Of a stretch of DNA of 12,638 bases, positions 1,925 through 3,488 are shown in pieces. The notes beneath the pieces were generated by a model. That model ran no database searches, was not told where the DNA came from, and saw only the letters and a list, made by a program, of their open reading frames with translations. How positions within the stretch are numbered: the stretch's first letter is position 1; each line of letters starts with the position of its first letter. Source of the DNA: Clostridium sp. (GTDB lineage: Bacteria; Bacillota_A; Clostridia; Lachnospirales; Lachnospiraceae); the NCBI GenBank assembly GCA_023666975.1, contig JAMPAW010000097.1, positions 1 through 12,638 of the forward strand, in the 5' to 3' direction. Position numbers and translations under genes: made by a program.

Positions 1925-1946
1925 CGCCAACCACAACCTTTAGCGA
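1925..1946 (+). repeat. Left inverted repeat (IRL), predicted recombination site
   Basis: This 22-bp sequence is the exact reverse complement of 3467-3488, with no mismatch, and similarity continues weakly inward (24 of 25). Each copy is itself a near-palindrome: read from the right-hand copy, CGCTAA and TTGGCG arms (5 of 6 complementary) flank a 9-nt asymmetric spacer AGGTTGTGG. That is the usual form of a tyrosine-recombinase core site, and the asymmetric spacer gives the site a direction. It lies 90 nt upstream of the start of the left operon. Confidence 0.85.
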
Positions 1947-1953
1947 CCACACC

Positions 1954-1977
1954 AAAAGAGCCCCTTATTCGGGGCTC
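1954..1977 (-). terminator. Rho-independent terminator of the recombinase gene
   Basis: On the minus strand GAGCCCC, a 6-nt loop GAATAA and GGGGCTC form a perfect 7-bp GC-rich stem (1958-1977), followed by TTTT (1957-1954). It begins about 30 nt after the recombinase stop and lies inside the inverted repeats. It should therefore stop recombinase transcripts from entering the left operon now, and from entering the right operon after inversion. The U-run is short, so termination may be incomplete. On the plus strand the stem is followed by a mixed CCTCTTTG tract, so it is oriented for minus-strand transcripts. Confidence 0.7.
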
Positions 1978-1987
1978 CCTCTTTGAG

Positions 1988-2004
1988 ATGACCACTTATC
2001 TGAC
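1988..2004 (+). repeat. Arm-type direct repeat A (ATGACCACTTATCTGAC)
   Basis: This 17-bp sequence recurs in the same orientation at 3223-3239 with one mismatch, so the copies bracket the recombinase gene. The local TGACCAC unit (1989-1995) is repeated at once at 2001-2007, and a partial GACCAC overlaps the inner edge of IRL at 1945-1950. Clustered short direct repeats just inside recombination sites resemble the arm-type sites bound by the N-terminal domain of Tn916- or lambda-type integrases. That role is inferred. Confidence 0.6.
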
Positions 2005-2006
2005 CA

Positions 2007-3131
2007 CTATTTCGTGATCAGAAGCTCCAGACACTTCCTTTTCTGCTCCATATCGCTGTGAACATAAATATTCAGTGTAGTATTTACCGACGAATGCCCT
2101 AACAGCTCCGCGACCGTCCTGCAATCCGAGCCGTTTTGTATACTGAGCGTAGCAAAGCTATGCCGCAGAGAATGAAAATTTAAATACCGTAAATCCAACT
2201 GCTCCAACAGCCTTTTGTATCGCTTTTGAATATTCCGCGGCTCCATACATCGCTTAGTTCCGGTCAAAATAAAGCTCTCCGGAGATTTCAGATGCTTCTT
2301 AAGATCATCTGTCAGACTGCACGGCAGCGGAATGTCCCGTATGGAGGAAGCGGTTTTGGGCAGGCCAATGTGCAAGACGGTTTTTGGAGAATCGCCGTCT
2401 TCCGAATGATAAGAAGCATTCTTGATCCGATATACAGTTCTTCTTATTTTAAACTGTATATTGACCGGGTCATAATCTTCCCAGCGCAAACCGCTTAACT
2501 CACCGATCCGCATTCCAGTGTACATACAGATGAGGAGGCCAAAAGAAAATGCGTCCTCCTGACGCCTCAGATGTTCCTCTAAGTGTGTCCACTCCTGAAC
2601 AGTAAATATTTCAGGCATTCTTTTTTCGGCTTTCGGCAGTTGGAGTACAGAGGTCGGAACTCTCCACTGGTGTTTTTCCTGCGCAGACTTTAGAATCGTC
2701 TGAAACAGAATCATGATAGAGCGTATGTAGGCAGGCGACAAATTCTCTTTTAGCTTTTCACCGACAAAATTCTGAGCGACGGCAGTCGTCAATCCTTCGA
2801 CGCGCAACTCTCCAAAATACGGCCGCAGATGCCGCTCCAGCATCGTCTCATAAAAACAAAAGCTGCTGGCCCGGACGCTGTTGCGGACGTCCGTTTTCCA
2901 CTGGTCAAACAGGCTGTTAAATACAACATTTTCCCCTGTAACGTCTGTACATGAGTTTGCCTTTAGCTGTAGGGCGCCTATCATCTCGTTTCGTTTTTGT
3001 CTGGCATCTGCATATTTTTTTGCATAAATGTATCCGTACTGAATACTGCCGTCTGTTTTGCGACCCTTTTGATACCGCGCTTCCCACCTTCCGTCTTTCC
3101 TTTTGCGGATGTTTTCTCCTTTTCTGGGCAT
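2007..3131 (-). CDS. Tyrosine recombinase (Tn916/lambda integrase family), predicted DNA invertase
   Basis: A full-length 374-residue tyrosine recombinase. Residues about 10-55 (RKRKDGRWEARYQKG...) form the AP2-like arm-DNA-binding domain. Residues about 70-160 form the SAM-like core-binding domain, and about 175-374 the catalytic domain. All expected catalytic residues are visible: Arg208 in TGMRIGELSGLRW, Lys259 in the beta-hairpin, His320 and Arg323 in HSLRHSFATL, His346 in LLGHSSVNTT, and nucleophile Tyr356 in LNIYVHS. The ATG at 3129-3131 follows AGGAGGA by 6 nt. The protein breaks and rejoins DNA strands. Enclosed by perfect inverted repeats and with no excisionase, conjugation or phage genes beside it, it more likely flips its own segment than mobilises an element. 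A retained arm-binding domain is less typical of simple invertases and fits the TGACCAC motifs nearby. Confidence 0.93.
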   Translation of the reverse strand: MPRKGENIRKRKDGRWEARYQKGRKTDGSIQYGYIYAKKYADARQKRNEMIGALQLKANSCTDVTGENVVFNSLFDQWKTDVRNSVRASSFCFYETMLERHLRPYFGELRVEGLTTAVAQNFVGEKLKENLSPAYIRSIMILFQTILKSAQEKHQWRVPTSVLQLPKAEKRMPEIFTVQEWTHLEEHLRRQEDAFSFGLLICMYTGMRIGELSGLRWEDYDPVNIQFKIRRTVYRIKNASYHSEDGDSPKTVLHIGLPKTASSIRDIPLPCSLTDDLKKHLKSPESFILTGTKRCMEPRNIQKRYKRLLEQLDLRYLNFHSLRHSFATLSIQNGSDCRTVAELLGHSSVNTTLNIYVHSDMEQKRKCLELLITK

Positions 3132-3200
3132 AATTGTTCCTCCTCGTAAAATGGATTTAGGTTACCTGAAAAAAATTTATAGTTCTGACTGGTAAGTGAC

Positions 3201-3229
3201 ATTATAGGTAGTGAGCTGCGGCATGACCA
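3201..3229 (-). promoter_or_regulatory. Promoter of the recombinase gene, overlapping arm-type repeat B
   Basis: On the minus strand a consensus -10 TATAAT (3206-3201) is preceded after exactly 17 nt by TGGTCA (3229-3224; 4 of 6 to TTGACA). Transcription would start near 3194, about 60 nt before the recombinase ATG. The -35 hexamer is the TGACCA of direct repeat B read on the other strand, so recombinase bound at its arm site would compete with RNA polymerase. Autorepression is inferred from this overlap. Confidence 0.65.
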
Positions 3230-3239
3230 CTTATTTGAC
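3223..3239 (+). repeat. Arm-type direct repeat B (ATGACCACTTATTTGAC)
   Basis: Matches 1988-2004 at 16 of 17 positions in the same orientation, on the other side of the recombinase gene. It contains one TGACCAC unit and includes the recombinase -35 box. A weaker inverted relative (CACTTAC, reading the minus strand) lies at about 3186-3199 on the other side of the -10 box. Confidence 0.6.
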
Positions 3240-3386
3240 TGCTTACAAGACATGATTTCTGATAAAAGAAATATTTTCTATCGGTTTTTTGATTGTTTTG
3301 CCAAAATGGAACAGGAAATGTCGTATGGAGGTATTAGGGCACTGATTATGGAAAATGCAGCAAGTCGATTGATTGTTCGGAGACAA

Positions 3387-3415
3387 TTGACTTTTCAACA
3401 GTATAGTGATAAAAT
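3387..3415 (+). promoter_or_regulatory. Strong outward sigma-A promoter (invertible), driving the heptose operon as drawn
   Basis: TTGACT (3387-3392) and TAAAAT (3410-3415) are separated by exactly 17 nt, with an extended -10 TGA at 3407-3409. Transcription should start near 3422, about 45 nt before the right inverted repeat, and cross it to reach the operon start at 3532. The promoter is inside the inverted repeats, so inversion would aim it across the left repeat at the glycosyltransferase gene ending at 1834. A GTCGATTG/CAATTGAC near-palindrome (3364-3371 and 3384-3391) overlaps the -35 box and could be an operator; that is weak. The rest of 3240-3386 holds no gene I can support. Confidence 0.8.
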
Positions 3416-3466
3416 GAGACCTTGTAAGAGTTTTGGTGATCTGTCAATGTAGAGGTGATAAATTGT

Positions 3467-3488
3467 TCGCTAAAGGTTGTGGTTGGCG
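3467..3488 (+). repeat. Right inverted repeat (IRR), predicted recombination site
   Basis: Exact reverse complement of 1925-1946 over 22 bp. It reads CGCTAA, a 9-nt spacer, then TTGGCG after an initial T. It sits between the outward promoter and the first gene of the right operon, inside the transcribed leader, 43 nt before the ATG at 3532. Base identity stops sharply on the outer side of both copies. Confidence 0.85.

Follow-up and report, generated by a model that had tools for sequence, protein, structure and literature searches.

A 1,564-bp (1.56-kb) segment at positions 1925-3488 of the window, that is, of the whole 12,638-nucleotide stretch analysed here, was found to have the structure of a self-contained switch. 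We estimate a probability of roughly 0.75 that this segment is flipped by its own recombinase so that its promoter drives either the operon on its right, of predicted heptose type, or the operon on its left, which is of Cps2T type. Under the proposed mechanism, the recombinase would bind the palindromic arms of both sites (TCGCTAA...), would probably bind the TGACCA motifs at each end of the cassette as well, and would exchange strands within the 9-bp spacer common to the two sites. In the orientation seen, the promoter would read through the right site into the WecG-type gene, and a hairpin would stop transcription of the recombinase gene before it reached the left operon. After inversion, the roles of the two operons would be swapped. 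From the anatomy and the relatives described below we infer both that the window's recombinase itself does the flipping and that the two operons are expressed in an either/or manner.

Anatomy of the cassette

The segment is framed by perfect 22-bp inverted repeats, CGCCAACCACAACCTTTAGCGA at the left end and its exact reverse complement at the right end (Table 1). About 6e-6 such inverted pairs would be expected by chance in the window. Enclosed by the repeats are a tyrosine recombinase gene, a terminator-like hairpin and an outward promoter sequence. As in promoter invertons, inverted repeats enclose an outward promoter and, as in Hin-type switches, the recombinase gene lies inside the segment. 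The original prediction had described perfect repeats around a tyrosine recombinase gene, its terminator and an outward extended -10 promoter, all placed between two divergent glycan operons; this anatomy was found as claimed, with operons starting just outside both repeats. An Rfam search at gathering thresholds returned no known RNA in the window. A 66-aa open reading frame (ORF; 3252-3452, plus strand) overlaps the promoter and is probably a chance ORF.

Table 1. Features of the cassette, of the operons flanking it in the window, and of the TnpB-like neighbours in relatives. Positions are those of the window unless a locus is named.
Feature	Position	Strand	Evidence or remark
Left inverted repeat, predicted terminator-end recombination site	1925..1946	+	Outward on minus strand: TCGCTAA-AGGTTGTGG-TTGGCGG
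Right inverted repeat, predicted promoter-end recombination site	3467..3488	-	On plus strand: TCGCTAA-AGGTTGTGG-TTGGCGA
Tyrosine recombinase, 374 aa, inside the segment	2007..3131	-	Pfam Phage_integrase 4e-23, Phage_int_SAM_3 3.8e-10
Candidate recombinase promoter, TGGTCA-N17-TATAAT	3201..3229	-	Consensus match only
Outward extended -10 promoter, TTGACT-N17-TAAAAT, TG before the -10	3387..3415	+	Consensus match; recurs in relatives
Terminator-like hairpin between recombinase stop codon and left site	1952..1979 (hairpin 1958-1977)	-	Folded stretch, z -4.2
Arm-like motif pair, TGACCA at 1989 and 2001, 12-bp period	1989..2006	+	Putative binding role
Arm-like motif TGACCA, same orientation, promoter end	3224..3229	+	Putative binding role
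Membrane-type protein, second gene of left operon, cut by window end	3..611	-	No domain hit
Cps2T-like rhamnosyltransferase, first gene of left operon	602..1843	-	NF046071, 556 bits, cut-off 500
WecG/TagA/CpsF glycosyltransferase, first gene of right operon	3532..4311	+	Probable ATG at 3532
Right operon: epimerase, HddA-like kinase, nucleotidyltransferase-phosphatase fusion, SIS-domain (GmhA-like) isomerase, transaldolase-family gene	4308..9107	+	
Right operon continued: two glycosyltransferases and a membrane-type protein	9171..12595	+	Membrane-type protein without domain hit
TnpB/Cas12f-like gene	L034:7414-8679, L047:6911-8176, L048:6852-8108, L049:7164-8399	-	
TnpB/Cas12f-like gene	L050:9818-11074, L053:10108-11349	+	

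The window's recombinase retains R208, K259, H320, R323, H346 and Y356, residues that we take to be catalytic from general knowledge of the family. This six-residue active-site motif (R-K-H-R-H-Y) was kept in all 27 loci analysed. Distant matches were obtained to Xer recombinases and to phage and transposon integrases of known structure, and Pfam reported no arm-binding domain in the protein. Its Phage_integrase match identifies a tyrosine enzyme rather than a serine recombinase of the Hin type; the cassette would work like Hin, yet is not a Hin-type member.

Relatives of the recombinase

The 27 loci comprised the window and 26 loci cut from 22 genomes. One scan of GTDB genome contigs supplied four loci, from Acetatifactor sp., Lachnospiraceae bacterium (two loci) and Blautia massiliensis; Acetatifactor belongs to Lachnospiraceae, as does Blautia. 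Whole-genome searches in the same family, with four candidates scored per genome, gave matches in at least 7 of 397 genomes (E up to 1e-80). At the same threshold, three genera yielded matches in 2 of 138, 6 of 17 and 9 of 64 genomes, with overlap among these sets and the family set, and two further genera had matches in 1 of 1 and 2 of 8 genomes (E up to 1e-70). Second, more distant copies were present in three of the four starting genomes (E up to 1e-40). A protein search returned 842 relatives of the recombinase at E up to 1e-60. Among viral contigs, one stretch matched a pattern and none encoded a relative. The nearest relative of the window has a recombinase 66% identical to the window's. 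One locus, L063, was left out of all counts.

Recombination sites

When the DNA within 900 bp of either end of the recombinase gene was searched for its longest perfect inverted pair, 17 of the 27 loci gave one of at least 17 bp; of 500 control positions in this DNA, 3 did so. Convincing pairs were counted in 19 of the 27 loci, namely these 17 plus L043 (14 bp) and L040 (13 bp), which have the same palindromic form. That form is the reason L040 was kept despite its short repeat; L045 also has a repeat of 13 bp, a length reached at 19 of 500 control positions, and for that reason it was not included in the counts of sites, arms and hairpins. L042 was counted with its 22-bp pair, outside which there is also a pair of 31 bp. 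Eight loci had no convincing repeat pair (L038, L039, L045, L046, L052, L054, L055 and L056). Less than 900 bp of contig lies beyond the 3' end of the recombinase gene in L054, L055 and L056, and L056 has one site only.

The sites are imperfect palindromes with 7-bp arms and a 9-bp spacer (7-9-7) in 17 of the 19 paired loci, as in TCGCTAA-N9-TTAGCGA, TCGCTTA-N9-TAAGCGA and TCGCAAT-N9-ATTGCGA. The two loci outside this count (L051 and L053) were misread by the automatic register and have TCGCATT arms when read by eye. Within a locus, the spacer was identical in both sites in 15 of the 17 cases and differed by one end base in two (L031 and L043), an identity to which the choice of loci by their perfect repeat contributed. 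Thirteen different spacers occurred among the 17 loci, with close relatives sharing one. The combination of shared palindromic arms with changing spacers does not follow from selection by perfect repeats. Shared arms together with changing, locus-matched spacers are the pattern expected from a tyrosine recombinase for which the crossover region has to be identical in both sites. Paired palindromic core sites with a matching spacer, the presumed position of the crossover, were what we found.

Two individual cassettes were unusual. L044 has two copies of the terminator-end site, separated by a run of N (L044:1542-1785), which is probably a scaffolding artefact. The cassette of L031 is longer (2.25 kb) and has an extra 124-aa ORF (8432-8806, plus strand) between the recombinase gene and the terminator-end site.

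Promoters, hairpins and arm-like motifs

The window's promoter faces the right operon and ends 51 bp from the right repeat. Taken by itself the match is modest evidence, since 4 of 200 shuffles of the same stretch score as well; the stronger argument is its recurrence in relatives. Of the 19 cassettes, 11 have an outward promoter scoring at least 12. Among these eleven is every member of the closest clade with paired sites (window, L031, L032, L033, L043 and L044). All six have TTGACT-N17-TAnAAT with an extended -10, ending 51-62 bp from the site, and the Blautia-type loci L034, L047, L048, L049 and L050 have TTGACA-N17-TATCAT, 42-63 bp from the site. For the eleven cassettes with strong promoters, 0 to 4 of 200 shuffles scored as well. 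The best outward match was weaker (score 10-11) in L035, L036, L037, L040, L041, L042, L051 and L053, where 2 to 84 of 200 shuffles reached the best score.

Hairpins with a z of -2.9 or lower were found at the terminator end of 12 of the 19 cassettes and at the promoter end of one. The window's hairpin was not listed as a terminator by a simple terminator scanner, and its U-run is short.

The TGACCA motif occurred 31 times at the cassette ends of the 19 loci in one orientation relative to the recombinase gene and never in the other, with about 1.8 occurrences expected; inside the recombinase genes, the two orientations were found 2 and 5 times. At least one copy was present in 15 of the 19 loci, 10 of which had copies at both ends, and four loci had none. 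We regard these motifs as putative arm-type binding sites of the recombinase. The TGACCA at the promoter end of the window overlaps the -35 element of the recombinase's candidate promoter, an arrangement that would allow the recombinase to regulate its own expression.

Flanking operons and the two-operon layout

The original prediction had the promoter facing a GDP-heptose operon and the opposite operon encoding glycosyltransferases and a polymerase. The promoter does face the right operon, but its GDP-heptose genes match HddA/HddC/GmhA-type models below curated cut-offs only, and for this reason the heptose-type sugar is called predicted. The glycosyltransferase assignment of the left operon holds for its Cps2T-like rhamnosyltransferase; the polymerase labels found no domain support, as neither of the supposed polymerases (3-611, minus strand, and 11156-12595, plus strand) had a Pfam or NCBIfam hit. 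Within the right operon, a single ORF (6455-7777) encodes a sugar-nucleotidyltransferase fused to a GmhB-like phosphatase. The WecG/TagA/CpsF gene probably starts at the ATG at 3532, the listed ORF beginning at 3433. A ribosome-site-like stretch, GAGGTGA, followed by a TTG, is located just inside the right site (3448-3531), and the frame from this TTG runs through the site into the WecG-type gene. The GAGGTGA and TTG are present at the same place in L001. A leader peptide encoded by the recombination site is possible at this end of the cassette.

The two nearest ORFs (at least 80 aa) on each side of the cassette point outward in the window and in five other loci (L031, L032, L033, L042 and L043). 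Comparison of the 24 nearest ORFs of these six loci with Pfam gave matches for 21, of which 20 were to glycosyltransferase, sugar-nucleotide or flippase families and one was to hexapeptide transferases. The three without a Pfam match were the window ORF at 3-611, a 377-aa ORF of L042 and a 103-aa ORF of L032. The runs of same-strand ORFs on the two sides in L031 measure, gaps included, about 18.5 kb and at least 28 kb, and each side has a gene for a Polysacc_synt flippase. Flippases on both sides were confirmed only for L031; L033 has one on one side and L043 a single sub-threshold match. The genes that open the two operons are Cps2T-type versus WecG-type in the window and Cps2T-type versus Alg14-type in L031. 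If the cassette is an either/or selector, these differing early glycosyltransferases mean that a flip would commit the cell to a different surface polymer rather than to a choice between coat and no coat.

Many family members, for example L034 and L047, have an outward operon on one side only, so the cassette family includes on/off as well as two-way layouts. The one-sided relatives lend some weight to a different account of the window, namely that the segment inverts to turn one operon on or off while the second operon has its own promoter, and so do promoter matches of moderate score (10 or 11) outside one site in L042, L044, L045 and L051. We consider this account unlikely for the window. 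Its best outward match in the 200 bp beyond the left site scores 9, has no TG and lies within the Cps2T gene, the best beyond the right site scores 8, and both operons begin within about 90 bp of a site. Promoters deeper inside either operon are conceivable.

The either/or reading can be extended from the window to its relatives. The proposal that a portable family of Lachnospiraceae tyrosine-recombinase cassettes selects between two large divergent glycan-assembly programmes, with one promoter and with its own terminator as insulator, seems to us evenly balanced between right and wrong.

Evidence for inversion

Comparison of L034 (Blautia massiliensis GD8, 3.5-Mb contig) with L047 (same genus, 3.7-Mb contig) revealed the cassette in both orientations. 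The flanks are collinear, 97.1% identical over 4.7 kb on one side and 97.9% over 6.5 kb plus 98.8% over 2.1 kb on the other. The 1.44-kb cassette between them, 91.5% identical, is inverted in one genome relative to the other, and the breaks coincide with the repeats of 22-26 bp. A member of the cassette family has therefore inverted in nature. The recombinases of these two loci are 44-45% identical to that of the window and represent more distant members of the family. A second comparison, closer to the window, concerns the Cps2T-like gene: it sits at the terminator end of the window's own cassette, and its homologue sits at the promoter end in the nearest relative (L001/L031). The inversion that the original prediction had proposed is thus supported by comparison, and it is predicted to occur in the window's own strain.

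The eight of 27 loci without a convincing site pair, and the fact that the window locus is known in one orientation, would fit a frozen or decayed inverton, one that descends from an invertible cassette, no longer flips and has a promoter that just drives the right operon. Disuse should let sites and genes drift; the 22-bp repeats of the window are perfect, and its recombinase has its full length and all six active-site residues, which makes decay quite improbable. Least credible, and very improbable, is a small mobile element with the recombinase as its integrase, the repeats as its ends and an incidental placement beside glycan operons: the enzyme does belong to the phage-integrase family, with its distant Xer and phage and transposon integrase matches, and family members do sit in varied loci, but recombination between inverted sites would invert rather than excise, L034 and L047 have the cassette in opposite orientations at one conserved place, and the window segment has no other recognisable mobility gene. 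Assignment to the integrative mobile elements, with direct attachment repeats and mobility genes, was rejected on the same inverted repeats and gene content. Our preferred reading remains a segment that its own recombinase inverts between two operons.

TnpB-like neighbours in Blautia-type relatives

A TnpB/Cas12f-like gene (Cas12f1-like_TNB) lies beside the inverton in Blautia-type relatives (Table 1). In L047 and L053 it adjoins the promoter end; in L034, L048, L049, L050 and L051 it adjoins the terminator end, the L051 copy being partial and detected by tblastx only. When the protein was aligned with its solved relative 8hr5, the positions that we take to be the RuvC-II Glu and the RuvC-III Asp read Pro and Tyr, so the protein looks nuclease-dead. 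In this it looks similar to the RNA-guided repressors called TldR. The gene could fall under the invertible promoter, in which case it would be on in L047 and off in L034. Downstream of the gene (L034:7120-7330, minus strand, and likewise in L047, L048, L049, L050 and L053) is a stretch, GGTTGAATACCGCC ... CGAAGAA ... GTATTCGAAGTTAT, that is conserved in six of six loci. Judged by its conservation beyond the coding end, this stretch looks like a putative guide-RNA scaffold.

Comparison with known inversion systems

The Hin switch of Salmonella, like the window, has a recombinase gene and one outward promoter inside a segment between inverted sites. Hin is a serine recombinase, and its switch serves one operon plus the repressor of a second antigen; the window, in contrast, has a tyrosine recombinase and operons directly on both sides. 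In the sap inversion of Campylobacter fetus, the genes on both sides of an invertible segment are served by a single promoter that the segment carries. That system differs from the window in its recombination machinery, in its larger segment and in switching protein S-layers rather than glycans.

The recombinase inside the segment, by which the original prediction had set the window apart from many promoter invertons, was found in the window and has precedents elsewhere. The excerpted text of PMC5903667 names Hin as a recombinase inside its invertible segment and reports an 844-bp fimbrial inverton of Providencia stuartii that encloses a recombinase gene between 14-bp imperfect repeats. Like the window, the Providencia segment has a recombinase ORF between inverted repeats and lies near a locus for a surface structure. 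It differs in concerning fimbriae, in Proteobacteria, and the excerpt does not describe it as lying between two operons (PMC5903667). Capsule invertons of Bacteroides (Mpi and others) invert promoters next to glycan operons, according to the excerpts of PMC5903667 and PMC11892184. As excerpted, B. fragilis uses one master serine invertase for many scattered promoters, unlike the window, whose cassette carries its own recombinase. In a survey of a defined gut community, Clostridia inverton group 139 was linked by proximity to tyrosine-type invertase group 35 (PMC11892184, in excerpt). These invertons are like the window in belonging to Clostridia and in having a tyrosine-type recombinase/integrase nearby; the link is one of proximity, and the excerpt does not describe a layout with two glycan operons (PMC11892184). 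Among titles and abstract openings of the open-licence literature, no description was found of a tyrosine-recombinase cassette between two divergent glycan operons. Switches with the recombinase inside are already known, and what is new here is a tyrosine-recombinase cassette set between two glycan operons.

Significance

Capsule phase variation is well studied in Bacteroides and much less so in gut Firmicutes. For Mediterraneibacter gnavus, the capsule promoter is reported as not bimodal in the excerpted text of PMC13121745. The sites, the spacer rule, the promoter and the orientation of a cassette can all be read from sequence, and the prediction is therefore directly testable in public long-read data. 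One enzyme with two short sites could also serve as a genetic toggle. If our reading is true, inversion of the cassette would swap one glycan programme for another and would give the cell a way to switch its antigens, its phage receptors and its host contacts.
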